NCBI RefSeq assembly: GCF_900115085.1
Contig: NZ_FOVF01000027.1
Location: 2,103-66,102, forward strand
Length of the DNA stretch: 64,000 bases
Origin: Dokdonella immobilis
GTDB lineage: Bacteria; Pseudomonadota; Gammaproteobacteria; Xanthomonadales; Rhodanobacteraceae
Reading direction: 5' to 3'
Shown here: positions 19,846 to 39,578 of the stretch, one piece after another
Numbering within the stretch: the first letter of the stretch is position 1
How the letters are laid out: each line of letters starts with the position of its first letter
Notes under the pieces: generated by a model
Told to the model about the DNA's origin: nothing
The model's database searches: none
What the model saw: the letters and a program-made list of their open reading frames with translations, nothing else
Program-made: the position numbers and the translations under genes

Positions 19846-20052
19846 AACGGCCATGTCGATTATCGGGCCTCCTGGCGGAGCCACATCCTTTCATCCCGTA
19901 TGCTTCGATGCCGGTTCGCCGGCGCCGGCCGACCGGTTTGGGGCATGCGCTGGCAGGCGACGCAAACGGCCTGTCGCGCGTCCGTACGACGAACGCGCTT
20001 CCGGTTTTCGCGCGAGTCAGCCGTCTTCCCATCTTCCGGAGCGGATCCATCC

Positions 20053-21009
20053 ATGACCTTGATTCCCGCCTTGATCGCGTCGGCCGCCATGGCCGTTGCT
20101 CCGCCCGACTGGATCGTCGCGCAGGGCAGCGGCACGTGTTCGGCCACCGATGTCGACTTCTCCGATGCGCGCCACGGGCTCGCCTCGTGTGCATTCAGCG
20201 ATGCGATGAAAACCAGCGACGGCGGCCTGACCTGGGCGGTCTTCCCGACCGGGCTCCAGCAGTCCCTCGTGTTTGCCCATGCGGCGTCGACCAGCGAGCT
20301 TTACCTGGCCCGGCTCGGGCTCTACCGCAGCAGCAACGGTGGATCGACCTGGGCGGAAGTCGGCAACCTCAGCGCCAACTTCGGCAGCGTCTTCGATGTG
20401 CATTTCGACGGTAGCCGGCGCGTCGCGCTGCAGGGTGGCAACATCCTCTACAGCACCAATGCGGGGGCGAACTGGCAGACCGGCTTCCCGGCCCAGACCG
20501 ATGTCTATCTCGACGAACTGCATTTTCCGACCTCGACGACCGGATTCGCCTCCGGCGGCATCACGACCGAGCAGGGCAGCATTGGCAGCGTGCTGCGTAC
20601 GACCGACGCCGGAGCGCACTGGACCTTGCTCGCGTTCACGCACGGCCAGATCACCGCAGCCGACTTTCGCGATGCGACCCACGGCATCGTCTCGACGCTG
20701 TCCGCGGCCGTCTATTCGACGGCCGACGCGGGCGCTTCCTGGCAAACCCTGGCGACCCTTCCCGACAACGCCTATCTGACCGACCTCGGCCAGCGTAGCG
20801 ACACCCACTGGTACGGCGTGGCGACCAACGGCTGTGTCTACGAGACCTTCGACGCAGGGGCGCACTGGACTGCAAGTGTGTGTGATCCATCCGCGCGCGC
20901 ACTTGTCGCCCTCACCCTGGGCGGGGGACCAGCCGTCGCGGTCGGCAGTGACGGTCTCGTGCTTTATGAAAACCGCATCCTCGAGGCCGGGTTCGAAGCC
21001 GTGCCTTGA
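20053..21009 (+). CDS. Secreted BNR/Ycf48-like beta-propeller protein
   Basis: 318 residues. A short signal peptide (about 1-17) is followed by repeats of the S-x-D-G/A-G-x-x-W type: TSDGGLTW, SSNGGSTW, STNAGANW, TTDAGAHW, STADAGASW, TFDAGAHW. These are Asp-box/BNR motifs of a beta-propeller similar to Ycf48-like or sortilin-type proteins. The C-terminus ILEAGFEAVP is a degenerate F-x-D-G-F-E tail. Nothing indicates an enzymatic site. It lies between an FG-GAP protein and a second, larger BNR protein. Confidence 0.75.
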   Translation: MTLIPALIASAAMAVAPPDWIVAQGSGTCSATDVDFSDARHGLASCAFSDAMKTSDGGLTWAVFPTGLQQSLVFAHAASTSELYLARLGLYRSSNGGSTWAEVGNLSANFGSVFDVHFDGSRRVALQGGNILYSTNAGANWQTGFPAQTDVYLDELHFPTSTTGFASGGITTEQGSIGSVLRTTDAGAHWTLLAFTHGQITAADFRDATHGIVSTLSAAVYSTADAGASWQTLATLPDNAYLTDLGQRSDTHWYGVATNGCVYETFDAGAHWTASVCDPSARALVALTLGGGPAVAVGSDGLVLYENRILEAGFEAVP

Positions 21010-21276
21010 ACGCAGGGCCCGGCAGCCCGTCCGACCGTCCCTGGTCGGCTGGGGCGCGCGTCCCATCCTGCCCCGTCCGGCGTGGCGTGATCCCGCCTCG
21101 ATCGCCCCGCCATGACAAGACGGACGGCATGTCGGGCGAGCAGATAGCCACGGCGTCGCGTTGATGCATGTCGATCGGACGCCGCTCGTTCGCCGGGCGG
21201 ATAGGCCATGCGACACAGGCACGAGGCCGCCAGGCTCGTCTATGCTTGGGCTTCGTCGAGTAGGGGAGAGCCGAAC

Positions 21277-24200
21277 ATGTCGATTGCGCGCTTGCGTGCC
21301 CTGTTGCCGTTGCTGTTGATCCTTGTCCTTGTTGGCCAGGCCGTCATGCCTGCGGCCGCCGCCGCGCCGTCGAAGAAGGAAGCCGGGCCGATGCAGGCCG
21401 ATACGTTCGCCGGTCTCGCCCTGCGCGGCATCGGGCCGGCCATGATCTCGGGCCGCATCGCCGACCTGACAGTCAATCCGAAGGACAAGTCGATCTGGTA
21501 CGTCGCCGCTGCCACGGGCGGACTGTGGAAGACGAGCAACGCCGGCACGACCTGGAGTCCGATCTTCGACGACCAGGGTTCCTATTCGCTCGGCTGCGTC
21601 ACCCTCGATCCGAACAACCCGCTCGTGGTCTGGGTCGGCAGCGGCGAGAACAACACGCAGCGCAGCGTCTCCTACGGTGACGGCGTCTACAAGTCGCTCG
21701 ACGGCGGCACGACCTGGACCAACATGGGTCTGAAGACCTCCGAACACATCTCGATGATCGTGGTCGATCCGCGCGATTCGAACGTGGTCTGGGTCGCCGC
21801 GCAGGGGCCGCTGTGGTCCTCCGGCGGCGAGCGCGGCCTGTACGTCACGCGCGACGGCGGCGCGACCTGGAGCAAGGCGTTCGAAACATCACCCGACACC
21901 GGCGTGACCGAAGTGCACCTGGATCCGCGCAATCCGGACGTCATGTACGCGACCACCTACCAGCGTCGCCGGCATGTCTGGACCGTGATCAATGGCGGAC
22001 CGGAATCGGGCCTGCGCAAATCCACCGATGGCGGCAAGAGCTGGCGCACGATCACGAATGGACTGCCCAAGGGCGACATCGGCCGCATCGGCCTGGCCAT
22101 CGCGCCGGCCGCTCCCGACACGATCTACGCGGTCATGGATGCGGCCGGCAAGGACAGCGGTACCTATCGCTCGACCGACGCCGGCGAGAACTGGGAAAAG
22201 CGTTCCGACTACAAGCCGACCACCGGCCAGTACTACAACAAGCTGTTCGCCGATCCGAAGGTGGTCGATCGCTTCTACGCGATGGACACCTGGATGCATG
22301 TCAGCGAGGACGGCGGCAAGAGCGCCCATCGCGTCGGCGAGAAGCACAAGCACGTCGACAACCACGTGCTCTGGATCGATCCCGACGACACCGACCACCT
22401 GCTCGCCGGTTGCGATGGCGGCGTCTACGAGAGCTTCGATCGCGGCGCCACCTGGCGCTGGTTCCGCAACCTGCCGCTGTCGCAGTTCTACAAGGTCGGC
22501 CTCGACAATGCGACGCCGTTCTATACGATCTACGGCGGCACCCAAGACAACAATTCGGTCGGTGGCCCCTCGCGCACGCGCACGGCCCATGGCATCGTCA
22601 ATTCCGACTGGTTCATCACCCTCGAGGGCGACGGCTTCCAGACCGTGGTCGACCCGACCGATGCCAATATCGTCTACTCGCAAGCCCAGCACGCCGTGCT
22701 CGTTCGCTACGACCGACGCACCGGCGAAACGGTCGATATCCAGCCGCAGGCCGATCTCGGCGACGCGCCGCTGCGCTGGAACTGGGATTCACCGCTGATC
22801 ATCAGCCCGCACCAGCACACACGTCTCTACTTCGCCGCGCAGCGCCTGTTCCGCAGCGACGATCGCGGCAATTCGTGGCGCCCGGTCAGTCCCGACCTGA
22901 CCCGCCAGATCGACCGCAACACGCTGCCGATCATGGGGCGTGTCTGGAGCGTCGATGCGGTGGCCAAGAACACCTCGACCTCGTTCTACGGCAACATCGT
23001 CGCGCTCTCGGAAAGCAGCCAGGTCGAAGGGCAACTGGCCATCGGCACCGATGACGGCCTGATCCAGATTTCGAGCGATGGCGGCGGAAGCTGGCGGCGT
23101 CTCGATCGCTTCCCGGGCGTGCCCGAACGCAGCTACGTCTCGCGCGTGCTGTTCTCGCCGCACGATGCGAACACGCTGTACGCCGCGTTCGACAACCACA
23201 AGCAGGGCGACTTCAAACCCTACCTGCTGCGCAGCACCGACCTCGGCCGCAGCTGGACCGCGATCACCGGTGGACTGCCCGAGCGTGGCACCGTGTATTC
23301 GCTGGTCGAGGATCCGGTCAAGCCGGGCCTGTTGTTCGCGGGCACCGAATTCGGTCTGTACTTCTCGCCCGACCAGGGCCGGCGCTGGATCCAGCTCAAG
23401 GGCGGCATGCCGACCATCCAGGTCCGCGACCTGGCCATCCAGCAGCGCGAAGGCGATCTCGTCGCGGCGACTTTCGGGCGCGGCTTCTACGTGCTCGACG
23501 ACTATTCGCCGCTGCGCGCGATCGACGATGCGGCACTGGCGCAGAAGGCGCTGCTGTTCCCGGTCAAGCGCGCCTTCACCTACGCGCAGAGCACGCCGTT
23601 CGGCGGCGCCGGCAAGGGCTTCAACGGCGATCAGTTCTTCACCGCGCCGAATCCGCCGATGGGTGCCGTGTTCACCTATTACCTGAAGGATGCATTGAAG
23701 TCGCGTGCCAAGACGCGCCAGGATGCCGAAAAGGAACGTGCGAAGAAGGGCGAGGACACGCCTTATCCCTCGTGGGACGAACTCGAGCGCGAAGCGCGCG
23801 AGGAAGCGCCGGTCATGGTCTTCACGGTCAGCGATGCCGATGGCCAGGTCGTGCGCCGCATCGAGGCCCCGGCCAAGGCCGGCCTGCAGCGCGTGGCCTG
23901 GGACCTGCGCTATCCGGCGGCGGTGCCGACCGACCTCGCCCCGGGCGAACGCGACCCCTGGGATCCGGAACCGGTCGGGCCGCTGGTCGCGCCGGGCCGG
24001 TATCAGGTGAGCATGGCTGCGCGTATCGATGGCGCCCTCGTGCCGATGGGTGAGACGCAGACCTTCGATGCCGCTCCACTCGGCGGCGATTCGCTGCCGC
24101 CGGCCGATCGCGAGGCCCTGCTCGCGTTCCAGCGCCAGACCGGTCAGCTGCAGCGCGCCGCGCTCGGCGCGGTTGCCGCAGCCGGCGAAGCGCAGAAGCG

Positions 24201-24576
24201 CATCGATCATCTGAAGAAGGCGCTCAACGACACGCCGGCCGCTGCGCCGGCCCTGGCCGGGCGCCTGCGCGCCATCGAAGGGCGTCTGAAGGACCTGCAG
24301 GTCGCACTGAGCGGTGATCGCGTGCGCGCACGCGCTGGAGAGCCGACCCCGCCGGCGATCGTCGATCGCATCAACCAGGTCGTCTACGGGCACTGGTACT
24401 CGACCGCCGACGCCACCGCGACGCATCACCGCAATTACGAAATCGCCGCCCAGCAGTTCGCGCCGGTACTCGCGCAGTTGCGCAGCCTGATCCTCGGTGA
24501 CCTGGCCACGCTCGAGAACGAAGCCGATGCGGCCGGCGCGCCGTGGACGCCGGGTCGCGTGCCGGACTGGAAGTAG
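21277..24576 (+). CDS. Large secreted BNR/sortilin-like propeller protein
   Basis: 1099 residues from the ATG at 21277 (GGGGAGAG upstream). The signal peptide is about 1-34. Residues about 40-750 carry many Asp-box repeats (TSNAGTTW, SLDGGTTW, TRDGGATW, STDGGKSW, SDDRGNSW, SSDGGGSW, STDLGRSW), enough for two propellers of the VPS10/sortilin type. From about 770 the sequence changes to a charged region (AKTRQDAEKERAKKG) and then an FlgD-like Ig segment (MVFTVSDADGQVVRRI...AGLQRVAWDLR), ending in helices. Proteins of this type in Bacteroidetes and xanthomonads are described as glycosyl-hydrolase-like, but no catalytic residues are visible. Periplasmic or extracellular. Confidence 0.82.
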   Translation: MSIARLRALLPLLLILVLVGQAVMPAAAAAPSKKEAGPMQADTFAGLALRGIGPAMISGRIADLTVNPKDKSIWYVAAATGGLWKTSNAGTTWSPIFDDQGSYSLGCVTLDPNNPLVVWVGSGENNTQRSVSYGDGVYKSLDGGTTWTNMGLKTSEHISMIVVDPRDSNVVWVAAQGPLWSSGGERGLYVTRDGGATWSKAFETSPDTGVTEVHLDPRNPDVMYATTYQRRRHVWTVINGGPESGLRKSTDGGKSWRTITNGLPKGDIGRIGLAIAPAAPDTIYAVMDAAGKDSGTYRSTDAGENWEKRSDYKPTTGQYYNKLFADPKVVDRFYAMDTWMHVSEDGGKSAHRVGEKHKHVDNHVLWIDPDDTDHLLAGCDGGVYESFDRGATWRWFRNLPLSQFYKVGLDNATPFYTIYGGTQDNNSVGGPSRTRTAHGIVNSDWFITLEGDGFQTVVDPTDANIVYSQAQHAVLVRYDRRTGETVDIQPQADLGDAPLRWNWDSPLIISPHQHTRLYFAAQRLFRSDDRGNSWRPVSPDLTRQIDRNTLPIMGRVWSVDAVAKNTSTSFYGNIVALSESSQVEGQLAIGTDDGLIQISSDGGGSWRRLDRFPGVPERSYVSRVLFSPHDANTLYAAFDNHKQGDFKPYLLRSTDLGRSWTAITGGLPERGTVYSLVEDPVKPGLLFAGTEFGLYFSPDQGRRWIQLKGGMPTIQVRDLAIQQREGDLVAATFGRGFYVLDDYSPLRAIDDAALAQKALLFPVKRAFTYAQSTPFGGAGKGFNGDQFFTAPNPPMGAVFTYYLKDALKSRAKTRQDAEKERAKKGEDTPYPSWDELEREAREEAPVMVFTVSDADGQVVRRIEAPAKAGLQRVAWDLRYPAAVPTDLAPGERDPWDPEPVGPLVAPGRYQVSMAARIDGALVPMGETQTFDAAPLGGDSLPPADREALLAFQRQTGQLQRAALGAVAAAGEAQKRIDHLKKALNDTPAAAPALAGRLRAIEGRLKDLQVALSGDRVRARAGEPTPPAIVDRINQVVYGHWYSTADATATHHRNYEIAAQQFAPVLAQLRSLILGDLATLENEADAAGAPWTPGRVPDWK

Positions 24577-24959
24577 GCCACTGAAATTCTGTCCCGACCC
24601 ATGTCGGGCATTCGGAAATTCCGGCCATGGATGGCCCGATTTCTTGCGGCCGGCCCGGGAATCGTCGCGCGGCACCCGCTCGGCATGGGCGGACGCGATT
24701 CGGGACGCACTGTGCCGATGCGGCGAGGTCAGTCCTCGCGCGCCGCGCCAGCCGCAACCACGGTCGCGCCGCCCGACCTGCCTTGATCTGCTGATTCGAT
24801 ATCGGCAGTCCTGAGCATGGAGCGACCGCTTGACGATGATTTGCGCGAGTCCTGATCGAACGGACGATTCCTTTCCGAGTATCCGGAATATGGAAGCGAT
24901 CGGCAGCCCACTGCCGGCCGGGCTTCCCGATCGGATCAGTCTCGGTTGGAGGTCGCGTC
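24577..24959. other. Intergenic region upstream of the acyltransferase gene
   Basis: 383 bases. A hairpin (CCCGAC/GTCGGG with a 4-base loop, 24593-24608) follows the BNR gene and may end its transcript. The rest contains no credible gene and must hold the promoter of the acyltransferase gene, whose GGAGG site lies 7 bases before the ATG at 24960. No promoter boxes can be assigned with confidence. Confidence 0.4.
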
Positions 24960-26210
24960 ATGCAGGATTTCTCGAGGTCGCCTGAATTGGGCAAGGCGGC
25001 CAAAGGTGTTGCCGGGGCCGCTCAACCCAATCCGGGCGTGACCCGCCCGGGTGAATTCATTCACTATTACACCAATCTTCTCGGCCTGTTGGGACGTGAG
25101 CGCTCCGCGGCAGACATTCGTTCGATCGCGCAGGCGGCGAGCGAGTCGAGAGAGCGCGCAATCGACGGATTCGCCGCCCGACTGCGGGAACTCGAGACTG
25201 ACTTCAGGCGCCAACGGACAGTCTCGGGAGATCGGCCGGAGCAGATGCCGAAAGCGTCGATGCGGGGCTGGGACCTGGCCAGGCTGGAGTCGATCCGGAA
25301 CGCGCACGGCGGCGCATTGATCGCATTGTTCCACTTTGGCGAGCATCGTCAGGTGTTCACCGACCTGGCCTGCCTCGGCGTGCCCTATGTGGCACCCGTG
25401 GCCAAGCAGGCGTATTTCGACTGCTGTGAGACGCTGGGCCAGGGACCGGAGCCATTCAGGCACGCCATGTCCCTGCTCGAGGTCGAAGATTCCAGGGTTG
25501 GCCGCAAGTTGGTCGCCGGCGTGCGCCAGGGCCGCCTCGGACTGATCTATGTCGATGGCAACATGGGACCGGATGGCCATCTCGTGGAAGAGGGTGCCGT
25601 TCGCGTCGATTTCCTTGGCCGGCGCATCCGCGTCAAGGCCGGTATCGCGCGCCTGGCCCTCGGTCTTGCACTGCCGATAGTGCCGCTGTTTGCAACGGGC
25701 CACGATGATGCGGTTGTGGTTCGGCTGAATCCGGTGATCATGCGCCCGCCCCGGACCGGCGCGACGGCCGGGCCGCCTCCTGTAGCGGCCATCGCTTCGA
25801 TCATGCAGTCGCTTTACGAGCAATTGGGCGACGAGGTGCTGCGAGCACCGCAGCAGTGGGAGTTCGCGTTCTGCTTTCACCGCTGGATCGAGGAATGCGA
25901 GCCTGCCGTCGCGGACCGGGACGTGGCCGAGTTGTCGGACGCGAATGGTGCGCTGGCAGTGGATCCGCAGCGAATCGCCGAGTATCGGCGTGATGGCGAA
26001 GTGTTCTGGATTCACGTCGGTCGGCAGCGGGCTTACCGACTTCCCGACTGGGCCGACGGCCTGTATGCGCGCCTCGATTCGAAGCGTCTTGGGATCGACG
26101 ATTCGCTGGCGTACCTGCAGCGCAAGGGCGGTCCTCCCGATCAGACAAGAGCGCTCGTCAGCGGTTTGGTTCGGCTCGGCCTGCTTGCCCAGGTTCGGGG
26201 CGCGGCCTAG
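24960..26210 (+). CDS. LPLAT-type acyltransferase with C-terminal PqqD/RRE-like domain
   Basis: 416 residues. Residues about 115-310 resemble the lipid A biosynthesis (LpxL/HtrB) acyltransferase fold: GGALIALFHFGEHR, then IYVDGNMGPDG...FLGRRIRVKAGIARLAL and IVPLFATG. The usual H-x4-E/D catalytic pair is not kept: His125 is present, but the +5 position is Arg130, with Glu128 at +3. There is no N-terminal membrane anchor. Residues about 335-412 (EYRRDGEVFWIHVGRQRAYRL, then three helices ending LVRLGLLAQV) have the strand-strand-winged-helix pattern of PqqD-like RiPP recognition elements. It precedes a Cys/Gly-rich small peptide gene and an M50 protease gene. I infer that it acylates or binds that peptide; the RRE call is by pattern, not by search. 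Confidence 0.7.
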   Translation: MQDFSRSPELGKAAKGVAGAAQPNPGVTRPGEFIHYYTNLLGLLGRERSAADIRSIAQAASESRERAIDGFAARLRELETDFRRQRTVSGDRPEQMPKASMRGWDLARLESIRNAHGGALIALFHFGEHRQVFTDLACLGVPYVAPVAKQAYFDCCETLGQGPEPFRHAMSLLEVEDSRVGRKLVAGVRQGRLGLIYVDGNMGPDGHLVEEGAVRVDFLGRRIRVKAGIARLALGLALPIVPLFATGHDDAVVVRLNPVIMRPPRTGATAGPPPVAAIASIMQSLYEQLGDEVLRAPQQWEFAFCFHRWIEECEPAVADRDVAELSDANGALAVDPQRIAEYRRDGEVFWIHVGRQRAYRLPDWADGLYARLDSKRLGIDDSLAYLQRKGGPPDQTRALVSGLVRLGLLAQVRGAA

Positions 26211-26650
26211 CCCGGACCACCAGGAACGTGCGAGAGACAAATGCCCAGTTCGTGGCGAACGGGTGCCAGCGCGATGGGCAGTGCCCTTCGTAGCGCGCGC
26301 AGGGCGCTGCCGTGCAAGCGCAAGGCGAGACGCCTTCCATGGAAGAGGACGCAATCGCGGCCCGAAGATTTCCGCCGCTTTGGCTCGCGGTATCGGTCGG
26401 TCGGGCCGTCTCGCCGCAGCGCAGCGGACGGATGCCGATTGCCGATGCCGGCGCGAAGTCGCGACAGCATCGGCAGTGCGATTGCTGCAGCGGCGGTGAC
26501 GAGTCGGGCCGGGCGTCACGGTTGTCGGCGTGCCTGCCGATGATGCGGCCTGCTGCGCGACCGAGATCGATGCACAGCAACGAATCGTCCCGAGGTATCG
26601 GGATTTCCCTGGGCCCCTGTGGCCCGTCTTGCAAACCTGAGGAGTCACCC
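26211..26650. other. Long untranslated gap before the small peptide gene
   Basis: 440 bases between the acyltransferase and the peptide gene. Open frames exist on both strands (for example 26312 onward, in frame with the peptide), but they lack a ribosome site and have shadow-like composition. It may contain the peptide's own promoter, since precursor genes are often transcribed more strongly than their processing genes. No consensus boxes are clear. Confidence 0.4.
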
Positions 26651-26791
26651 ATGAACAAGAATCTCATCGAAGAAATGTCGATCACCGAACTTGAGCAGCG
26701 CGTCGAGTTCAGCTGCTGCGGCGGCGGCGGCGGTGGTGACGGCGACCCGTCGACCGGATGCCCCGAATTCACCTACTGCGATCCGCAGTAA
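26651..26791 (+). CDS. Cys/Gly-rich small peptide, candidate RiPP precursor
   Basis: 46 residues with a strong GAGGAG site 6 bases before the ATG. The N-terminal 20 residues are an amphipathic, acidic leader-like segment (IEEMSITELEQRVEF). The C-terminal 26 residues contain Cys22-Cys23, six consecutive Gly (24-29), an acidic turn, then Cys37 and Cys43, ending CDPQ. This two-part layout (charged helical leader, small Cys/Gly core) is that of a ribosomally made, modified peptide precursor. It lies between a putative RRE-bearing acyltransferase and an M50 protease, and two strong hairpins follow. The strong ribosome site and the context make it a real gene; the modification is unknown. Confidence 0.72.
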   Translation: MNKNLIEEMSITELEQRVEFSCCGGGGGGDGDPSTGCPEFTYCDPQ

Positions 26792-26803
26792 GCGAACGCC
26801 GAA

Positions 26804-26834
26804 GGCGGGCCGGACGCCTGGCGTCCGGCCCGCC
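26804..26834 (+). terminator. Strong GC hairpin after the peptide gene
   Basis: A perfect 14-bp stem (GGCGGGCCGGACGC) with a 3-base loop lies 13 bases after the peptide's stop codon. There is no T-run, so it may act as a transcript-stabilising or partial-termination structure, raising peptide expression relative to the downstream protease gene. Confidence 0.6.
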
Positions 26835-26840
26835 GCGTGC

Positions 26841-26866
26841 CCGGCGACCGGGTTCCCGGTCGCCGG
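26841..26866 (+). terminator. Second hairpin after the peptide gene
   Basis: CCGGCGACCGGG and its exact complement are separated by 2 bases, directly behind the first hairpin. Two tandem GC stems with no T-tract look more like a processing or attenuation region than a simple intrinsic terminator. Confidence 0.5.
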
Positions 26867-27030
26867 CTTGCGGTCGCTGGCGACGGATCGGGTGCCTGTC
26901 GCGATCAGTTCGGTTCCGCGCAATGCGCGCCAATCGATGCGGACCGACAGGGTGCGTCGAGGTGGCGATCCGGTTCCGGTCCGCGCGATTGAAGCGTTGC
27001 ACGGTCGGATCCCGTTGACGAGAGTGGGAA

Positions 27031-28305
27031 ATGAGCGAGCGTCTCTATCAGATCAATCCGTCCCTGCGCGTTCAGGAATTCGACGACGCGGCGCTGACGA
27101 CGCGCTGGCTCTATGAACTGGACGATGGCAGAGGTCGCGAGCAGCGTCTGCTGGTGTCGGCACCGATGCATCACCTGCTGACCGCGTACGCGCGCCCTCG
27201 GACCCTGGCCTGGACGGAGTCCGAACTTCAGGCCGAAGGCTGGCGCGAGTCCGATGGCCCGGCCTTGCAGGCACTCATCCACGAACGTTGTCTGCCCTGC
27301 CGGCTGCTGATTCCGTGCGGCGGCGAGGCGAGCGTGCGGCGCAATGCTCCCGAGCAGCCGCTGCGACCCGCATACATGAGTCTCATGTTGCCCGTGCTGG
27401 GCGCCGCCAGTGTCAATCGGGTGGCTCGTCACCTGCAGCATCTCTTCGCTCCGGTGCTGATGATACCGGGGGCAGTGGCCGTCCTCGTGGCGCTCGTGGC
27501 CCTCATGCAGGCGTTGTCCAGTGAAGGCCGGTTCGCGGCGGCCAGCTCCGCAGACGTGTTGCGTGCGTTGGCTCTGGGCATCGTCGGTGTCGTCGTGCAC
27601 GAACTCGGTCATGCCGCTGCCGCCTGGCGCTCCGGCGCGCGCGGAGTGAGTATCGGGATCGGCTGGTACGTCTGCTTTCCGGTCGCCTACGCGGATCTGT
27701 CCGAAACCTGGCGAATGAGTCGGCGCGAGCGTGCACTGATCGACATCGCCGGGGTCTATCTGCAAGGACTCTGGATCGCCGGCTTGATGTTCTGGCACAG
27801 CGTCAGTGGGCACGCAGCATTGCTGGTGGCGGCGCTCGCCGGTGCGATATCGATCCTCTGGAACATGAACCCGTTTCTGCGCATGGATGGCTACTGGCTG
27901 GCCAGCGATCTGCTCGGTATCGCCAATCTGCGCGAGGCGGCGCGGTCTTCATTGGCAGCATCATGGAATCGTCTGCGGCGGCGACCGGTCATGGCTGGTC
28001 GGATCCGGTTCGGACCGCGAACAACGACTGCCCTTTTGGGTTATGGCGTTCTGAGCACGGCCTTCTTTGCCTGGATGGTCGTCGCCGCAGTCGACCATTT
28101 CGGCGAGGCGGCACTCGAGGCGCTGCCTCGGCTCGCGCAGGATCTGCGAACCAGTGCCTGGTCCCGGATCGGCATTGCCGACTTCTGGGTCCTGATCGGC
28201 AGTTTTCTCTGGCAGGTGTTCATGGTCGTCGTGCTTGGACGATTTCTGCAAGTGACCGCGAAACGCTGGTGGCGACGCTGGTCGAGAGGCGAGCCGTCCG
28301 CTTGA
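27031..28305 (+). CDS. M50 site-2-protease-like membrane metalloprotease with PqqD-like N-terminus
   Basis: 424 residues. Residues about 1-98 form a soluble domain (YQINPSLRVQEF, ...LLVSAPMHHLLTAY..., ALIHERCLPCRLLIP) resembling the PqqD/RRE-like N-terminus of putative peptide zinc metalloproteases found in RiPP clusters. A multi-pass membrane part follows, with the M50 zinc motif VVHELGHAA (His190, Glu191, His194) and the second metal motif NMNPFLRMDGY (Asn280, Asp286). Membrane segments lie at about 138-160, 178-198, 236-256, 262-280, 333-353 and 382-402. It likely cleaves or transports a small peptide at the inner membrane. The gene is 239 bases after the peptide gene, the natural substrate candidate. 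Confidence 0.8.
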   Translation: MSERLYQINPSLRVQEFDDAALTTRWLYELDDGRGREQRLLVSAPMHHLLTAYARPRTLAWTESELQAEGWRESDGPALQALIHERCLPCRLLIPCGGEASVRRNAPEQPLRPAYMSLMLPVLGAASVNRVARHLQHLFAPVLMIPGAVAVLVALVALMQALSSEGRFAAASSADVLRALALGIVGVVVHELGHAAAAWRSGARGVSIGIGWYVCFPVAYADLSETWRMSRRERALIDIAGVYLQGLWIAGLMFWHSVSGHAALLVAALAGAISILWNMNPFLRMDGYWLASDLLGIANLREAARSSLAASWNRLRRRPVMAGRIRFGPRTTTALLGYGVLSTAFFAWMVVAAVDHFGEAALEALPRLAQDLRTSAWSRIGIADFWVLIGSFLWQVFMVVVLGRFLQVTAKRWWRRWSRGEPSA

Positions 28306-28390
28306 TCGCATTGTCGTCCCGGCCCCGAGATGCACGACGCAGGCCTGATCGCCCGTCCCGGGAAAATGAATTCCGCATGAGTGCGACAAT

Positions 28391-28414
28391 ACCCCCGAGA
28401 ACAGTTGCGGGGGT
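28391..28414 (+). promoter_or_regulatory. Inverted repeat just upstream of the ECF sigma factor GTG start
   Basis: ACCCCCG and CGGGGGT form a perfect 7-bp inverted repeat with a 10-base spacer, ending 8 bases before the GTG at 28422. If translation starts at the upstream ATG (28377) the repeat is inside the coding region. It could be an operator or an mRNA hairpin limiting sigma factor translation. Confidence 0.35.
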
Positions 28415-28421
28415 TAGGTTC

Positions 28422-29009
28422 GTGCCGAACAATCAGCCTGGAATCACCGGGCTCCTGACGAGTTGGCGAGAAGGCGATCGGAACGCCGAAAATACGCTGG
28501 TGGAATATCTCTATCCGGTCCTGCGCGGCCTGGTTGGCGTGCAACTGCGGCGAGCGCCGTCGGGGCTGACCCTGTCGGCAACCGAGCTGGTCAATGAAGC
28601 TTATATCCGCCTTGAGCAGCAGCGCGAGGTGGAGTGGAGGAATCGCGATCATTTCCTCGCGATCACCGCCACCGTGGTGCGCCGGGTGGTCGTCGATTAC
28701 CTGCGCGAGCGCTCGGCCATGAAGCGAGGAGCGGGTCAGATCGCGGTGCAGTTCGACGAATTGAGTTCGGGGGACGTTCCGGCGGTCGGCGATCAGGTCG
28801 ACTGGCTGGCGCTCGATCAGGCACTGACGCGACTTCAGGGGCTCGATGCCGACTGCGCGCGCGTCGTGGAACTGCGCCTTTTTGCGGGATTGGGTGTGGA
28901 GCGCATTGCGCAGGTTTGCGGCAGTTCGGTTGCCACCGTCGGACGCCAATGGCGGTTTGCACGCAACTGGCTGGCCGACCAATTGGACCTGACGATTCGT
29001 GACCGCTAG
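28422..29009 (+). CDS. ECF-type RNA polymerase sigma factor (TIGR02999/ECF43-like)
   Basis: 195 residues from the GTG at 28422 (GGGGGTTAGG upstream); an in-frame ATG at 28377 would add 15 residues. Sigma region 2 is at about 10-90 (LVEYLYPVLRGLVGVQLRR... NRDHFLAITATVVRRVVVDYLRERS) and region 4 at about 125-190 (VVELRLFAGLGVERIAQVCGSSVATVGRQWRFARNWL). This type is repeatedly encoded beside Ser/Thr kinases and is thought to be switched on by phosphorylation. The kinase gene starts inside its last codons (11-base overlap). It could control the upstream peptide cluster, which is inference from position. Confidence 0.83.
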   Translation: MPNNQPGITGLLTSWREGDRNAENTLVEYLYPVLRGLVGVQLRRAPSGLTLSATELVNEAYIRLEQQREVEWRNRDHFLAITATVVRRVVVDYLRERSAMKRGAGQIAVQFDELSSGDVPAVGDQVDWLALDQALTRLQGLDADCARVVELRLFAGLGVERIAQVCGSSVATVGRQWRFARNWLADQLDLTIRDR

Positions 29010-31548
29010 CGCAAGGCTCCGCCGTCTCCAGGATCTATTTGCCCAGGCGCTCGAACTGCCGCCGGAACAGCGCGTGAAATGGCTTGATGCGCTTGATTCG
29101 TCGGAACCCGGGACGATGGGCGAGCTGCGCAGATTGCTCGCGCGCGAAGAACAGGCGGCGTCGATTCCCGATGGCGTGCCGGTCGGCCTGCTCGCGTCGG
29201 CCTTGTCGGAAATGAAGCAAACCCCGGTTCATGCCACGGCGGGAGGCTTCATCCTGCACGAAGAACTCGGGCGTGGCGGCATGGGCTGCGTCTTTCGAGG
29301 TGTGCGCGTGTGCGCAGGTGCGCGTCAGGAAGCCGCCATCAAGATCCTGCGCCCTGAACTGCGCCATGGCGCGGCGATCGAGCGGTTTCTGATCGAGCGA
29401 CGCATGCTCGCGCGGCTCGAGCATCCGGGGATCGCCAGATTGCTAGACGCCGGGGAAACGGCAGACGGAACACCCTTCGTCGCCATGGAGCTGATCCGCG
29501 GACAACCGCTGCTCGAGTATTGCGCGCAGAAGCGCCTTGGGATCACGGAACGCATTGGTGTGTTCCGGCAACTGGTCGCCGCGGTGATGCACGCCCACCG
29601 GGCCCTGGTCGTTCACCGTGATATCAAGCCATCGAATGTCATGGTCGATGCCGATGGTCGCGTTCGCCTCCTTGACTTCGGTATCGCCAAGGGACTGGTC
29701 GAGGAGGGCGACTCGACGATCACGGCCAATCGCTACTTCACGCCCGCCTACGCTGCTCCCGAGCAGCTGACAGGCGGGCCGATTACCGTGGCTTGCGATG
29801 TCTATTCCCTTGGCGCGCTTCTGTACGAGCTGCTTTGCGGCTCGCCGCCCTTTCGCATGGCGGGGATGCGCGCCGCCGACATCGAGCGGCTGATCCTCGC
29901 CACGCCGCCGCGCCCGATGGAGCAGGCTTTCGTAGCCACGCAAGCGCAAGGCACTCCGCAAATTTCCGCCGAGAACCGGCGTCAGTGGCGTCGAACATTG
30001 CGTGGCGAGCTGGAAAGCATCGTGCAATGCGCCTTGCGCAAGGAACCGGACGCGCGATATGCAACGGCGGCTGCGCTGGATGAGGATCTGCAGAAATGGC
30101 TCGAGAAGCGACCGGTCAGCGCGGCGGGCGCTCAATGGCATTATCGGGTCCGAAAATTCATTCGACGCAACATCGCGATCACTTCCGCCGCGGCCACGGT
30201 GATCGCCAGCACCGGAATTGCGCTCGTGCTGGTCGTGCAACAGGGCGTTGTGGCGAATCGCGAACGGGATCGGGCGCGCGAAGCGCTGAGGGCGCTTGGC
30301 GATGCATTCGTGGCGGCGGATCCAACCGGCCTGTCCGGCGGTGAAGTCAGTGCCCGTAGCATTCTCGATGCGGCAAGCCGACGAATCTCCGCGCACGTGG
30401 CCCGGCGCCCGGAGGTTTATGCGGAGCTCGCGGCCGAGGTGGGCAGCGTGCAGCTCGCGCTCGGCGTCGTCGATGCCGATGACACTTCGATGGCCCAGGC
30501 GCTGCAATGGGCAGAGGGTGAAGAGGGCCAGGAAGCGCTGGCCTGGCGCCTTTCATTGCTGCGGGCCCGGCGGCTGGTCGCGCAGCACGCATTCGACCAG
30601 GCCGATGCGGCGCTGATCGAACTCGAGCGCAAGCGCCCAACCGATGCCCTGGTCAGGCTGACGCGCGGAAAGTACTGGATGGCGCGGAGCGAGCCGTCCG
30701 CTGCGATTCCATTCCTGACCGATGTCGTGGCCGCTTTTCCGGACGATGTCACCCAGGTCGACCGCGTTGATGCGCAGTGGCAACTGGCCGAGGCGCAGCG
30801 TCTCGGCGGTAACCCGGCAGCGGCGCTTGGCACGCTCGACGCGCTCTCGACCCAGCTGGCCCGGGTCGTCGATTCGCGTCATGGGACGGTCCTGCTGACG
30901 CGCTTGCGTCGCGTCGATGCCCTGCTCGACCTCGGACGAGTCGATGAAGCGACCGCGCAAGCGCAGACGCTTTCGGTGCAGATCGAATCGACCTTTGGGC
31001 GTAAGTCATCGGTGACCGCCTTGACCTATTCGACACTGGCCCTGGCCCTGGTTCGAGCCGGGCGCTACCGCGAATCCATCGAACCCTACCGCAGCGCGGC
31101 GACTGCCTATGCCGAGAGCCTCGGCAGCAACCACGTCACGACCGCACGATCCTATTTTAATCTGGCTCTCATGCAGAACTATGTCGATCCGTACAACCCG
31201 GAAAGCGCCACCGGCTACCGGCGGGCGATCGCCTCGGCCAGCGTGGCCCGTGACCCCTCAGACCCATTGGTGACGTTTTTCCGGATCGAATACGCGAAGT
31301 CCCTGCTCAAACGAGGTGAGAAGTCGGCAGCGCGGGAGGTGCTTCTACCCGAGAATGTCGTGCCGGATCTCGATTCGGCCGGTCCGGATATCGCAGCGGC
31401 CTATCGCGAACAACTGGCGCTCTCGTTCGGATCGCTGGTCTGTCCGCCTGCGCCATCGGCAAGGTCGGCCAATGCCCCGGTTACCCAGGCGGACCGCGCC
31501 GCATCGCTAACTTGTGCGGCTGATCTGCCGAAAGTTGACCCGTCATGA
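28999..31548 (+). CDS. Membrane Ser/Thr kinase with TPR-like C-terminal half
   Basis: 849 residues, GTG start overlapping the sigma factor gene by 11 bases. After an N-terminal helical region, residues about 78-370 are a Hanks kinase: ELGRGGMG, AAIKIL, HRDIKPSNVMV, LLDFGIAKG and APEQL. A membrane segment lies at about 393-412 (AITSAAATVIASTGIALVLVV). The C-terminal 430 residues are helical repeats of TPR type, predicted periplasmic. Kinases linked to ECF43-type sigma factors phosphorylate their partner; the overlap here strongly suggests such a pair. All catalytic residues are present. Confidence 0.88.
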   Translation: MTASARLRRLQDLFAQALELPPEQRVKWLDALDSSEPGTMGELRRLLAREEQAASIPDGVPVGLLASALSEMKQTPVHATAGGFILHEELGRGGMGCVFRGVRVCAGARQEAAIKILRPELRHGAAIERFLIERRMLARLEHPGIARLLDAGETADGTPFVAMELIRGQPLLEYCAQKRLGITERIGVFRQLVAAVMHAHRALVVHRDIKPSNVMVDADGRVRLLDFGIAKGLVEEGDSTITANRYFTPAYAAPEQLTGGPITVACDVYSLGALLYELLCGSPPFRMAGMRAADIERLILATPPRPMEQAFVATQAQGTPQISAENRRQWRRTLRGELESIVQCALRKEPDARYATAAALDEDLQKWLEKRPVSAAGAQWHYRVRKFIRRNIAITSAAATVIASTGIALVLVVQQGVVANRERDRAREALRALGDAFVAADPTGLSGGEVSARSILDAASRRISAHVARRPEVYAELAAEVGSVQLALGVVDADDTSMAQALQWAEGEEGQEALAWRLSLLRARRLVAQHAFDQADAALIELERKRPTDALVRLTRGKYWMARSEPSAAIPFLTDVVAAFPDDVTQVDRVDAQWQLAEAQRLGGNPAAALGTLDALSTQLARVVDSRHGTVLLTRLRRVDALLDLGRVDEATAQAQTLSVQIESTFGRKSSVTALTYSTLALALVRAGRYRESIEPYRSAATAYAESLGSNHVTTARSYFNLALMQNYVDPYNPESATGYRRAIASASVARDPSDPLVTFFRIEYAKSLLKRGEKSAAREVLLPENVVPDLDSAGPDIAAAYREQLALSFGSLVCPPAPSARSANAPVTQADRAASLTCAADLPKVDPS

Positions 31549-31691
31549 TCGATTCGGCCTCCGGCTTACGAGTACAGGAAGAGCTCGAACCCGGACACTC
31601 GCGGGAGGCGCGAATTGCTTCATGCCGATCCGGGCACGCCCGCTCCTGTCGTCCCGGCCGGTTGTTCCCAAACCCGAATGGAGGTTCTGCA

Positions 31692-32150
31692 ATGAATTCA
31701 TGCGTTCAGTCATTGGCCGCGCTGGCGTTCCTGGCCATCTTCGCGGCTCCGTCGCCTTCACGCGCCCAGCCTCCCGTCTGCCCGGTCGTCAAATGCACGC
31801 CGGAGGAATTTCCTGTGCGCCCGAAAGTCTATGAATGCCCAAAATTGCAGCCAGTGGGTGCGCCCATCGAGGCAATACTCGATTGCACTTCAATCCGCCC
31901 GCATTCCGTCAGGTGCCGGGCTTTTCCAGTCGAGGTTGAGAGTACTTGCGGGGGATCCGGTACCAACCTCATCTATGAGTGGTCGGTACGGGTCGGCATG
32001 TCGACCTATCCGTATCCGCCGAGCTACGACAATACGATCTCGGTGAGTTGCATGGCCCTGGAGGGCGTCAACGTCGACGTCAAGGTTTGGAACGGCGGGT
32101 ACTCGAGCAACGCGCATTTCGGCATGCGCTGCGGTGACGAGCCGAACTGA
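31692..32150 (+). CDS. Secreted Cys-rich hypothetical protein
   Basis: 152 residues with GGAGG 7 bases before the ATG. Residues 1-25 are a signal peptide ending SRAQP. The mature region has eight Cys (PVCPVVKC, YECP, LDC, VRC, TCGGS, SCMA and RCGDE), consistent with several disulfides, and a beta-rich Tyr/Pro-rich middle (YPYPPSYDNT). I do not recognise a family. It follows the kinase gene by about 140 bases but has its own ribosome site; a link to the sigma/kinase pair is unproven. Confidence 0.65.
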   Translation: MNSCVQSLAALAFLAIFAAPSPSRAQPPVCPVVKCTPEEFPVRPKVYECPKLQPVGAPIEAILDCTSIRPHSVRCRAFPVEVESTCGGSGTNLIYEWSVRVGMSTYPYPPSYDNTISVSCMALEGVNVDVKVWNGGYSSNAHFGMRCGDEPN

Positions 32151-32288
32151 GTTGCGAGCGCAGCGAAAGCGTCATGCAGGCCTCGATTTCTCGCACCTGC
32201 GACCATGACCGGCCGAATCCTCGAATGGCTGTCCCTGAATCCGCAGATGTGGCCTGACCCGCCGGTCGCGCGGGTCGTCGTCGTGTGA

Positions 32289-32477
32289 TCAGGCAGGCTG
32301 GACTTGTGCGGGCTGGACCAACTCGGGATTCTCTGCACATTCGCGGTGTGCACAGGTGCAGGTGTCGTGGCCACTGGCGGCCATTTCGCGGCAATGGTCG
32401 CTGCAGAATTCCTGCTCTGCGGTGACCTGGCAAATGCATGGGCGGTGTGCACAAGGTTGCAGATGGTCGATTTGCAT
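32289..32477 (-). CDS. Bacterial metallothionein
   Basis: 62 residues, read from the ATG at 32477 with GGGAGA 7 bases upstream; the 557-residue reading that contains it is an antisense shadow. The Cys/His arrangement CAHRPCICQV...QEFCSDHCREMA..HDTCTCAHREC matches the SmtA/BmtA family: eight Cys plus several His, the spaced CxC and CxxC pairs, and a C-terminal tail without Cys. Such proteins bind Zn, Cd or Cu in the cytosol for storage and detoxification. No SmtB-type repressor lies next to it. Confidence 0.8.
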   Translation of the reverse strand: MQIDHLQPCAHRPCICQVTAEQEFCSDHCREMAASGHDTCTCAHRECAENPELVQPAQVQPA

Positions 32478-32702
32478 GGTCGGTCTCCCTGGAAGCCAGG
32501 CGTTCTTTTTGCATCCTCCTGCCTGAACCTGCCCCATCGCTGTGCCGGGCCAGGGCCGGACGAAGCGGGTGCGGTCGTTGCCGAGTTGTGACGCAGTTCC
32601 GTGAACGAACGCGTCGAGGCAATATGCCGTGCTGCCCCCCGGAACAGGATATGGGATCATTGAAGGCTTGCAAACTTGTGCCGTGTCCGGGGGGAGACGA
32701 GC

Positions 32703-33935
32703 ATGACCGCAGTCGAGGTCAGCGAAGGCGAAATCCGGCGTCGACAGGACCGACGTCTGAAGACTCGCGTCTTCGATACCTATGCGCGCTCCTCGGTCGG
32801 TGGATTTCTTTATCTTATCGCGTGGTTTCCACTGGCAATCGCCACGCACCTGCATGTCCGCCACCCCTGGATCGTGCTTGCGCTGACCGTGCTGTTCGTG
32901 ATCGCAGCGGTCCTGCGCAGGCTGACCCGACCCTCGCGGGATGATCCAGAAGCGCAGATGCGGTGGATCAACCGATATGCCTGCATCGCCCTTTCGAGTA
33001 TCGCGATCTGGGCCGGTATCCAGGTCTGGGTCCTCGCCGACCCGCTCGTGCCGCCGCTGGTCAAGAGTGCGTCGTTGTTCGGAACGATTGCATTTTCCAC
33101 GGTGCTGGTTCACCTCTATACCAGCATCCTGCGTTTGACCGTGATCGGCATCGCCCTGTTGATCATCCCGTCCGGCCTCGTGCTCTGGTCGGACCCGCAA
33201 TTGCACATACTCGCATTGACCCTGACCCTCTATTCCGGATACCTCGGCGCCGCCGCATTCCGCTCGCGCAGCGACTACCGGCGTCGACTCGATGTCGACG
33301 AGGCGCTGGTCGAGCAGCGCGATCGCTACGAGGAACTGAGCAGGACCGATTCGCTGACCGGCTTGCGCAACCGGCGCAGTTTCAGCGAAGCATTGAACGA
33401 GCAGGTTCGCGAAGCGCAATGGCTGTCCGGGGCAGGGGTTGCGCTGGCCCTGCTCGACATCGATCATTTCAAGTCGATCAACGACCGCCATGGCCACGTC
33501 ATTGGCGACGAGGTGCTTCGCCACCTCGCCGAGCGCCTCAGGGCAGCGTTCCCCGAGCCCGACGTCGTCGTTGCCCGGACCGGCGGCGAAGAGTTCGGAC
33601 TCATCCTGCGCGACTACGACGAGATTTCGACCATGATCCGAACCGATACATTCCGCGAGGCCCTGGAAGCCGAGCCCGTCGTCTGCGCAGGCATCGCGGT
33701 GCCGGTGTCGGTCAGCATCGGCGTCGGCAGCTTCCATGCCGAACGCGACATCAACGACGATGGATTCTACGGAGCCGTCGACGTCGCCCTGTACGCGGCC
33801 AAGCAGCAGGGGCGCAATCGGGTCGTCTCGGTGAGCATGCTCGAGCCGGGCCTGATCGCGCGCCGCAGCATGGGTCGCGTGACCAAGCCAGTGCAGCCTT
33901 CGCAGGCTCGTCCAGGGATGCCCCGGGATGCTTGA
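32703..33935 (+). CDS. Membrane diguanylate cyclase (GGDEF)
   Basis: 410 residues from the ATG at 32703 (GGGGGAGA upstream). Residues about 32-188 contain six membrane helices (a simple membrane sensor region), then a short coiled linker (DVDEALVEQRDRYEELS) and a GGDEF domain from about 212. The active-site motif is GGEEF (294-298), a functional variant, with DIDHFKSIND metal and substrate residues. The RxxD inhibitory site expected 5 residues before the motif is PEPD, so product inhibition at the I-site is probably absent. It makes c-di-GMP. Its last codons overlap the HAD gene by 8 bases. Confidence 0.87.
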   Translation: MTAVEVSEGEIRRRQDRRLKTRVFDTYARSSVGGFLYLIAWFPLAIATHLHVRHPWIVLALTVLFVIAAVLRRLTRPSRDDPEAQMRWINRYACIALSSIAIWAGIQVWVLADPLVPPLVKSASLFGTIAFSTVLVHLYTSILRLTVIGIALLIIPSGLVLWSDPQLHILALTLTLYSGYLGAAAFRSRSDYRRRLDVDEALVEQRDRYEELSRTDSLTGLRNRRSFSEALNEQVREAQWLSGAGVALALLDIDHFKSINDRHGHVIGDEVLRHLAERLRAAFPEPDVVVARTGGEEFGLILRDYDEISTMIRTDTFREALEAEPVVCAGIAVPVSVSIGVGSFHAERDINDDGFYGAVDVALYAAKQQGRNRVVSVSMLEPGLIARRSMGRVTKPVQPSQARPGMPRDA

Positions 33936-34635
33936 ACTGATCGGATTCGACGGCGACGACACGCTCTGGCAAAGCCAGGACTTCTACGACGCCGCACAGG
34001 CCGAGTTCGAACGCATCGTCGGCGCCTATGTTGATCTCGCCGACGTCCGCGTCCATGAACGCCTGCTGGCGGTGGAGACCAGGAATATCCAGGCCTTCGG
34101 CTATGGGGCCAAGGGCATGACCCTGTCGATGATCGAGGCCGCCTTCGAGATCACCGGCGGGCTGATCAGTTCCGGTGACCTGCACCGCCTCGTCGGCATC
34201 GGCAAGGAAGTGCTTGCCCACCCGGTGAACCTGCTGCCGGGTATCCGCGAGGCCGTGGAAGACGTCGCGCGTCGGTATCGAATCGTCCTCATCACCAAGG
34301 GTGACCTGATCCACCAGCAGGCCAAGGTCCGCCGTTCCGATCTCGGCGATCTCTTCCATCGAATCGAGATCGTTTCGGAAAAGGACCCGGAGGCCTACGC
34401 CCGTGTCCTCGAGGAGTGCAACGTGCAGGCCGCCGCGTTCGCCATGGTCGGCAATTCGCTGCGTTCCGATATCGCACCGGTGGTCGAACTCGGTGGCTGG
34501 GGTGTCTACATGCCCTACCACTCGACCTGGTCCCTGGAGACCAATCCGGATTTTGCCGTGGACAATCCGCGCGTCGTCCAGATCAATACGGCCAGTTCGA
34601 TCCCCGCCGCGCTCGAGCGTCTTGGTACCCCGTGA
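33928..34635 (+). CDS. HAD-superfamily hydrolase
   Basis: 235 residues. Motif I is FDGDDTLW (Asp8/Asp10 as nucleophile and acid/base), motif II is LITKGD, a Lys in the KDPEAYAR region serves as motif III, and motif IV is GNSLRSDI. The cap is helical and sits between motifs I and II (C1 type), as in phosphoglycolate phosphatase-like enzymes. Cytosolic small-molecule phosphatase; the substrate is unknown. The start overlaps the diguanylate cyclase gene by 8 bases, so the two are translationally coupled, although no biochemical link is evident. Confidence 0.85.
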   Translation: MLELIGFDGDDTLWQSQDFYDAAQAEFERIVGAYVDLADVRVHERLLAVETRNIQAFGYGAKGMTLSMIEAAFEITGGLISSGDLHRLVGIGKEVLAHPVNLLPGIREAVEDVARRYRIVLITKGDLIHQQAKVRRSDLGDLFHRIEIVSEKDPEAYARVLEECNVQAAAFAMVGNSLRSDIAPVVELGGWGVYMPYHSTWSLETNPDFAVDNPRVVQINTASSIPAALERLGTP

Positions 34636-37349: not shown

Positions 37350-38600
37350 ATGGATATCGCCCGCCCCGAACTCAAGATACGCAAGCGTCGTCGCCAGTGG
37401 CTGGTCGGCGGCGTCGTCCTCCTCCTCGTACTGGCCGCCGCGGCCGGTCTCATGGCGCTCGGCCCGGCCATGCCCTCGGTCGAACGCAGCAGCGTGCTGG
37501 TCGATACCGTCAAGCGCGGCGAGCTGCTGCGCGAGGTGCGCGGACCCGGCACCCTCGTGCCGAAGGAGATTCGCTGGATCGCCGCGGAAACCTCGGCCCG
37601 GGTCGAACGCGTCCTGGTCAAGCCGGGCGCCGCCGTGGAGCCGGATACGGTCATCCTCGAGCTGAGCAATCCGGAAGTCGATGACCAGCTGCTGGCGGCC
37701 AAGGCCGCCCTGACCGCGGCGCAATCCGACCTCGCCGCGCGTCGCACCGACTTGAAGTCGCGCCTGCTCGACCAGCAGGCCGCCGAGGCCCAGGCAAGAA
37801 CCGACTACGAGACGGCGCGCATGCAGGCCGAGTCGGAGAAGACCGTGGCGGAGAAGGGCATCATTCCCGCGGTGCAGTACAAGAAGAGCCTGGTCGTACT
37901 CGAGCAGCTCAAGTACCGCGTCGAGATCGAACGCCAGCGGGTCGCCGAATTCGAGCGCAACATCACCGCGCAGCTGGCCGCCGAGCAGGCGCGCCTCGAC
38001 CAGTTGGCCAACACCCGCGACTTGCGCCAGCGCCAGGCCGACGCGCTCCAGGTCCGCGCGGGCATCGCCGGCGTGCTGCAGCGCGTGCCGGTCGAGGAAG
38101 GTCAGCAGGTCGACGCCGGCGCCAATCTGGCCCGCGTCGCCCGACCGGGCGATCTGATGGCCGAGTTGCGCATCGCCGAAACCCAGGCCAAGGATGTCGT
38201 CATCGGCCAGCCGGCGCGGATCGACACCCGCAACGGCATCGTCGCCGGCAAGGTCCTGCGCGTGGATCCGGCCGTGCAGAACGGCACCGTGCAGGTCGAT
38301 GTCGAGCTCGAAGGTGCGCTGCCGGCCGGCGCCCGTCCCGATCTTTCGGTCGACGGCACGATCGAGATCGAGCGCCTGGCCGACGTGCTGTATGTCGGGC
38401 GCCCGGCATTCGGTCAACCGGAATCGGAAGTCCGCCTGTTCAAGGTGGATGCCGACAACGTGGCCAGCCGCGTGCCGGTGCAGCTGGGCCGAAGTTCGGT
38501 CAACCTGATCGAGGTGCGCAATGGCCTGCAGGTCGGCGATCGCGTGATCCTTTCCGACACCAGCGCCTACGACCAGAGCGACAAGCTTCGACTGGACTGA
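37350..38600 (+). CDS. HlyD/MacA-like periplasmic adaptor subunit
   Basis: 416 residues. A basic N-terminus and one membrane anchor (about 17-38) precede the first lipoyl half-motif (GPGTLVPKEIRWIAAE). A long alpha-helical hairpin follows (about 115-225, Ala/Gln/Glu-rich coiled coil), then the second lipoyl half, and beta-barrel and membrane-proximal domains. This is the MacA/HlyD adaptor layout. It would connect inner-membrane MacB-like permeases to an outer-membrane channel that is not encoded in the window. First gene of an operon with two ABC ATPases and four permeases, behind a sigma-54 promoter. Confidence 0.88.
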   Translation: MDIARPELKIRKRRRQWLVGGVVLLLVLAAAAGLMALGPAMPSVERSSVLVDTVKRGELLREVRGPGTLVPKEIRWIAAETSARVERVLVKPGAAVEPDTVILELSNPEVDDQLLAAKAALTAAQSDLAARRTDLKSRLLDQQAAEAQARTDYETARMQAESEKTVAEKGIIPAVQYKKSLVVLEQLKYRVEIERQRVAEFERNITAQLAAEQARLDQLANTRDLRQRQADALQVRAGIAGVLQRVPVEEGQQVDAGANLARVARPGDLMAELRIAETQAKDVVIGQPARIDTRNGIVAGKVLRVDPAVQNGTVQVDVELEGALPAGARPDLSVDGTIEIERLADVLYVGRPAFGQPESEVRLFKVDADNVASRVPVQLGRSSVNLIEVRNGLQVGDRVILSDTSAYDQSDKLRLD

Positions 38601-38631
38601 CATGAAACGGACATCAATCAATGAAGAACCA

Positions 38632-38708
38632 CTGTAGGAAGCGGCTTCAGCCGCGATGTCTATGCATCAAATGATGACAAGCATCGCGGCTGAAGCCGCT
38701 TCCTACAG
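38632..38708. repeat. REP-like palindromic pair
   Basis: A 27-bp sequence starting CTGTAGGAAGCGGCTTCAGC and its exact inverted copy (38682-38708) are separated by 23 bases, forming a large hairpin between the adaptor and ATPase genes. The motif is of the kind scattered through intergenic DNA of xanthomonads. A second copy lies at 49463-49542. Confidence 0.8.
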
Positions 38709-38752
38709 AAAGCGTGACACCACTCGCTATTTGAATCGCAGGGCCGATTGAC

Positions 38753-39541
<789 letters not shown>

Positions 39542-39578
39542 GCGCAAGGATCGAAGGCCGGCGCGGGATGCCTGCGTC

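Follow-up and report, generated by a model that had tools for sequence, protein, structure and literature searches.

In a stretch of 64,000 nucleotides from the Dokdonella immobilis contig NZ_FOVF01000027.1 (hereafter the window), three consecutive genes on the same strand encode a lysophospholipid acyltransferase (LPLAT) of the PF03279 family, a peptide of 46 residues and an M50 membrane metalloprotease (Table 1). This gene trio is real and recurrent, since an LPLAT, a peptide with an LExRxE leader and an M50 protease occur together in 15 genomes, the window genome and 14 further ones. The trio almost certainly forms a pathway for a ribosomally synthesized and post-translationally modified peptide (RiPP), of a new type that is undescribed in the literature searched. 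As the best explanation of the whole, to which we give a probability of about 0.45, the LPLAT would acylate a Cys at a fixed position next to the leader and a protease of the site-2 type would remove the leader. An initial annotation, made from the letters of the window, had proposed a lipidated RiPP from these genes; their order and coordinates were confirmed and all three were accepted there by a codon-usage gene finder, and the elements it had listed, namely HELGH, NPxxxxDG, Cys22-Cys23-Gly6 and a ribosome-binding site before the peptide gene, are present in the sequence.

Recurrence of the trio

The trio genomes other than that of the window are G015, G138, G160, G143, G152, G250, G173, G211, G267 (JAUIFV010000034.1), G330 (JAKSCJ010000438.1, 'Lysobacterales bacterium'), Rheinheimera sp. 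EpRS3, R. lutimaris YQF-2, G898 and G1335, the last of which is the same place as G1392, met twice and counted as one genome. The window genome is in the same order as the Lysobacterales metagenome-assembled genome, and the two Rheinheimera trios keep the gene order of the window. The neighbourhood check suggested with the initial annotation thus came out in its favour, with the peptide conserved beside such enzymes in genomes other than the window's.

Searches with either enzyme led to the same association. The window LPLAT alone finds one relative among 60 kin genomes (G015). M50 matches were obtained in 41 of 233 family genomes; all nine genomes with a match at E 1.5e-21 or better carry both the LPLAT and the peptide, and the six weaker M50 loci inspected (L034-L039, one of them the second M50 of G015, L035 being only 4.9 kb long, and the set covering 5 of the 32 genomes with weaker matches only) have neither. 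In a survey of the order with an LPLAT profile, 16 of 398 genomes matched, nine of them below 1e-15 and all nine with an M50; the other seven, near 1e-9, are probably ordinary, and the one inspected (L059) has no M50. The window-type LPLAT was found in one of 369 class genomes, namely the window's own, and in two of 196 Rheinheimera-family genomes (G870 and the distant G898), and the M50 in three of 237 genomes of the Rheinheimera order sample (G870, G898, G1392), each time with both partners. A scan of genome contigs with a single LPLAT confirmed nothing, the scan with three LPLATs yielded 4 of 80 candidate stretches, and plasmids gave no LPLAT match. The LPLAT in neighbourhoods was detected by a profile built from these very loci; independent support for it comes from the P0001 BLAST, Pfam and the A1 search.

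The clusters are of several kinds. Those of the window type (the window, L055, L056, L062 and L063, with 1, 1, 4, 2 and 2 precursors respectively) consist of the LPLAT, the precursor or precursors and the M50, with no radical S-adenosylmethionine (SAM) enzyme. L026 adds a radical SAM/SPASM protein (TIGR04463-like), four arginase-family proteins, one Cupin_8 and one TauD protein, and L027, L029 and L030 resemble its layout, the domains being named in L026 only. L058 adds a radical SAM enzyme alone and a protein resembling tetratricopeptide repeats (TPR), and L074 adds one arginase. In two loci a protein with no Pfam match separates the M50 and the LPLAT (L033:7099-7845 and L073:7847-8761), the two being mutually dissimilar. 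In a remnant in G424 (L057:8568-10673), the M50 is immediately preceded by an LPLAT whose N-terminal part is missing, and no peptide was found there. The radical SAM gene of L028 lies in two pieces (L028:11207-14480), with an unnamed 415-residue open reading frame (ORF) on the opposite strand between them.

Precursor peptides

Twenty-six precursors were tabulated, the two of L030 being omitted as 98-100% identical to those of L029. All of them bear the LExRxE leader except L028b, which reads FEDRTEL. The background of 162 kb (the window and six control loci) contains 1666 mechanical ORFs of at least 25 residues; two of these carry the pattern LExRxE[FLMIVY], one of the two being the window peptide frame itself. 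In all ten window-type precursors the first Cys lies at +2 or +3 from the leader motif, and the core continues past the Cys with a stretch rich in Gly, Ser and Asp and then a variable tail. A core Cys is present in 25 of the 26 precursors; it lies at +2 to +4 in L026-L029 (L028b excepted) and L074, and at +10 to +17 in L031, L058, L033 and L073. The tails vary in length and sequence, even inside one cluster and between two Rheinheimera species. Each Rheinheimera precursor pair (L062:9121-9511 and L063:9123-9540) has a common leader and the start LCGGSGGGG, followed by unlike tails. The precursors of L026-L030 end in RCNGRC-type cores, and in L056 the interval from the last precursor to the M50 contains tandem CCCAGTAAAACAA-like repeats (6560-6702, minus strand).

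The window-type cores are hydrophilic, with a mean hydropathy of -0.02 to -1.24. One of the ten contains Lys, and the core of the window peptide, which ends in DPQ, contains neither Lys nor Arg. Residues 1-20 of that peptide (MNKNLIEEMSITELEQRVEF) include no hydrophobic stretch and no signal peptide with a lipobox, as judged by reading and not by a signal-peptide predictor. Among ten precursors scanned against NCBIfam, only those of the window and L055 returned rows; the best sensible match to a precursor family, azolemycin, is below the cut-off (E 0.047, 13.5 against 35 bits), and membership in a known precursor family was rejected.

The two enzymes

Alignments of both enzymes comprise 15 sequences, two close species pairs among them. 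The window LPLAT matches the Pfam family Lip_A_acyltrans with 31.2 bits (cut-off 22.3), and PF03279 is over its cut-off in six of the seven tabulated LPLATs (window, L031, L033, L055, L062, L073, L074; not L026). His125, Asp199 and Trp300 are invariant in all 15 LPLATs. The gene is under purifying selection: between the two Rheinheimera the ratio of nonsynonymous to synonymous substitution rates (dN/dS) is 0.16 for the LPLAT and 0.15 for the M50, against 0.01 and 0.10 for flanking genes, and values of 0.13 and 0.03 were obtained for G143 versus G152. Distances between LPLATs and between M50s are correlated (r 0.94, 13 pairs, none of 10000 permutations as high), for which common descent alone may suffice. 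A Foldseek search with the LPLAT model gave PatA as the best, though weak, match (E 0.016), with LpxM also among the matches, and a PDB sequence search with the LPLAT profile gave a single chance row (E 0.36). A housekeeping lipid A enzyme was ruled out for this gene, because the genome holds three other PF03279 proteins, all with the normal HX4E motif (HLGCWE, HVGSFE, HFSHLE).

For the window M50, the Pfam match to Peptidase_M50 is below the cut-off (21.8 against 27.2 bits), and its identity rests on the motifs HELGH (residues 190-194) and NPFLRMDG (residues 280-287) together with sub-cut-off matches to NCBIfam protease models: daptide_HExxH with E 4.3e-26 and 91.9 bits, well under 300 bits, and the epipeptide protease model YydH/LiaK with 42.8 against 225 bits. 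HExGH is kept in 15 of 15 M50s, as are the Pro, Asp and Gly of the second motif, whose Asn is kept in 14.

PqqD-like domains, that is, RiPP recognition elements (RREs), had been suggested by the initial annotation at the C-terminus of the LPLAT and the N-terminus of the M50, and predicted structures support RRE-like domains on both enzymes. By fold matching, residues 328-414 of the LPLAT model as an RRE-like fold, and so does the N-terminus of the M50, the core of which resembles RseP/SpoIVFB in structure matches. The hhalign comparison of the two RREs is weak (probability 2.9, E 0.015, with L031 and L058 left out), so that the assignment rests on fold and not on sequence. L033 and L073 have shorter LPLATs, whose length leaves no room for a full RRE.

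The proposed pathway and its alternatives

The trio, its conservation, both RRE folds, the fixed Cys and the purifying selection are supported by computation; from them we infer a course for the acyl transfer, its donor and acceptor, the order of steps, the cut site, export and the biological role. The RRE of the LPLAT would hold the LExRxEF leader of the precursor, and the enzyme would move an acyl chain, probably from acyl-acyl carrier protein (ACP), onto the Cys 2-3 residues past the leader. Hydrophilic in itself, the peptide could be drawn to the membrane by this chain; there the M50, gripping the leader by its own RRE, would cleave between leader and core, and the product would be a lipopeptide with an acylated Cys, a Gly-rich spacer and a variable tail. 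That the peptide is acylated at all seems reasonably probable. The fixed Cys as the site is a more tentative proposal: judging from the precursors, this Cys, which the initial annotation did not name, would be the likeliest acceptor, because it is the sole positional constant of the window-type cores. A lipid would also explain how such hydrophilic cores meet a membrane protease.

Several points weigh against acylation of the Cys by the LPLAT. The acid of the HX4D/E motif is missing in all 15 LPLATs, the window enzyme reading HFGEHR; Arg replaces it in 12, Trp in L058, Leu in L033 and Ala in L073, and hhalign aligns the motif of this kind with HLGCWE and HVGSFE of two LPLATs of the window's own genome (probabilities 8 and 74). 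Because of this loss ordinary LPLAT catalysis is doubtful, and the fatty acyl transfer put forward in the initial annotation is still best stated conditionally; a thiol acceptor may, speculatively, need less base catalysis. Moreover, the LPLAT body is poorly modelled (mean predicted local distance difference test score 47.7), Pfam recognises nothing in the LPLAT of L026, L028b has no Cys, Ser or Thr stands in all ten window-type cores at no fixed position, and the neighbouring genes inspected included no acyl-activating enzyme or ACP. The argument from the meeting with the membrane is also weakened, since M50 proteases act in other RiPP pathways described with no such lipidation step in the parts of PMC10885120 available to us, TglG/TmoG clipping pearlin scaffolds there.

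Other readings of the same genes were weighed as well. The loss of the catalytic acid, with Arg in its place in most sequences, would suit an LPLAT fold that performs another transfer or none and serves as a leader-binding chaperone or as a membrane anchor for the M50; this is rather unlikely in view of the invariant His125 and Asp199, the purifying selection on the gene and the PF03279 scores still over the cut-off. Hydroxyl groups are the usual acceptors of lipid A-type acyltransferases, and every window-type core offers Ser or Thr, so the pathway might be the same with the acyl group placed there, or on the N-terminus exposed once the leader is removed. This we consider unlikely, as the RRE on the LPLAT suggests action with the leader still attached and the position of the Cys is fixed while that of Ser/Thr is not. 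It is very improbable that the peptide is a pearlin-like scaffold, a reused carrier on whose end a residue is built and then clipped off by the M50: membrane M50 proteases are usable in pearlin pathways, according to the part of PMC10885120 seen, but the tails differ in length and sequence even within a cluster and the trio loci showed no pearlin enzymes. That a common lipid enzyme, a false ORF and an unremarkable protease lie side by side by chance, as the exclusively ordinary Pfam names might suggest, has next to no probability and was rejected on the recurrence of the trio, to which the missing partners at weaker M50 loci and the rarity of the leader motif in background ORFs may be added.

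Returning to acylation of the fixed Cys, a wider form of this reading, which we regard as doubtful, would make the trio a counterpart of lipoprotein maturation independent of a signal peptide: the acid-less LPLAT would S-acylate the leader-side Cys, an intramembrane cut would follow at or near it, the acyl group possibly shifting to the freed amine, and the LPLAT with the M50 would form the shared centre of a RiPP superfamily, extended in other lineages by radical SAM enzymes and arginases.

Hairpin and neighbouring genes

The initial annotation had placed hairpins around the peptide gene. The one behind the stop is borne out by its fold (26788-26850, z -4.0), and a special hairpin directly before the start is not (26560-26655, z -0.2); the stretch 26211-26330 further upstream gave z -2.6. 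A hairpin at the same place exists in L055 (z -4.2) and L062 (z -4.3), and more weakly in L063 (-1.2) and L056 (-1.6), and it may set the level of the peptide over that of the protease. The scan of 24500-28450 found no promoter and six terminator-like sites, none of them this hairpin, and Rfam has no match in 20000-34000.

A sigma factor of extracytoplasmic function (ECF) type and a kinase downstream of the trio are possible regulators. The L055 cluster adjoins a similar pair (sigma factor 48% and kinase 35% identical) in a different orientation, and it is the only one to do so among 13 cluster loci tested. The window genome has nine TIGR02999-type sigma genes, and the chance of one within 2 kb is about 1%. 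A plus-strand run at 37350-49443 contains what we take, partly from mutual BLAST, to be a membrane-fusion protein, an ABC ATPase and four MacB-like permeases. Relatives of the fusion protein and the ATPase adjoin the clusters in L028 (53% and 71%) and L074 (25% and 52%), 2 of 13 loci; because the run lies 9 kb from the trio in the window, export by these genes is only a lead. Upstream of the trio is a gene for a large Sortilin/BNR-repeat protein (21277-24576, plus strand), which matches the NCBIfam F510_1955 glycosylhydrolase model under its cut-off. A defence system was also considered and rejected, neither the LPLAT nor the M50 having a PADLOC match at E 0.01 in the window or L062.

Table 1. 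Features of the trio and the adjoining genes in the window
Feature	Position	Strand	Basis
LPLAT (PF03279 family), 416 aa, C-terminal RRE-like domain	24960..26210	+	Pfam, relatives, conserved residues
RRE-like domain of LPLAT, residues 328-414	25941..26201	+	
GAGGAG, ribosome-binding site of peptide gene	26639..26644	+	read from sequence
Precursor peptide gene, 46 aa	26651..26791	+	sequence, gene finder, homologous leaders elsewhere
Leader motif LEQRVEF, residues 14-20	26690..26710	+	LExRxE common to tabulated precursors
Cys22-Cys23-Gly6 (Gly24-29), first Cys at +2 from leader motif	26714..26737	+	
14-bp hairpin 3' of peptide gene	26804..26834	+	fold z-score
M50 membrane metalloprotease, 424 aa, N-terminal RRE-like domain	27031..28305	+	
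RRE-like domain of M50, residues 1-100	27031..27330	+	
ECF sigma factor (TIGR02999), possible regulator	28377..29009	+	NCBIfam
Ser/Thr kinase with TPR repeats, possible regulator	28999..31548	+	Pfam, NCBIfam

Significance and comparison with known systems

If the proposal is true, a lipid A-type acyltransferase fold joins RiPP chemistry, lipidated peptides whose tails vary greatly and whose enzymes are named like plain lipid metabolism would be expected as a class, and the question arises how an LPLAT works with neither Glu nor Asp in its motif. Testing needs just three genes, and homologues exist in culturable Rheinheimera. The initial annotation knew of no RiPP class with this trio, and this agrees with the literature searched (mostly without subscription journals): none of the matches listed describes a RiPP pathway with an LPLAT, and of the papers naming both RiPP and lysophospholipid acyltransferase none is on RiPP biosynthesis by its title and the start of its abstract.

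Selidamide pathways use GNAT-type enzymes to acylate ornithine or Lys. Fatty acylation of a RiPP core, as proposed for the trio, is a feature of selidamides and other GNAT-acylated RiPPs (PMC12703449, seen in part), whereas the trio has a PF03279 enzyme instead of a GNAT and the window core offers no Lys or Arg as acceptor. The DAG-RiPPs, hybrids of RiPP and lipoprotein such as DybA, share with the trio a gene-encoded modified peptide whose end product, proposed or shown, bears a lipidated Cys; as far as the accessible part of PMC12636315 tells, their peptides enter the general lipoprotein pathway by way of a signal peptide and are modified by an MNIO, whereas the trio has a leader with no hydrophobic stretch and, as enzymes, an RRE-bearing LPLAT and an M50. 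Daptides, in the part of PMC10036551 consulted, resemble the trio in their M50-type protease, the daptide_HExxH model being the nearest, and in RRE-assisted maturation; the trio differs in that the core has no C-terminal Thr and the protease scores far below the model cut-off, and no daptide oxidative decarboxylase, aminotransferase or methyltransferase was found among seven window proteins scanned with Pfam and NCBIfam. In epipeptides (EpeX/YydF with the M50 EpeP; PMC10885120, in part) a membrane M50 likewise releases a RiPP, but the window-type clusters are without their radical SAM enzyme and the YydH/LiaK score is low. Finally, PatA and LpxL/LpxM belong to the same sequence family as the trio LPLAT, which is set apart from them by its fused RRE, the loss of the HX4D/E acid and a peptide gene as its partner.

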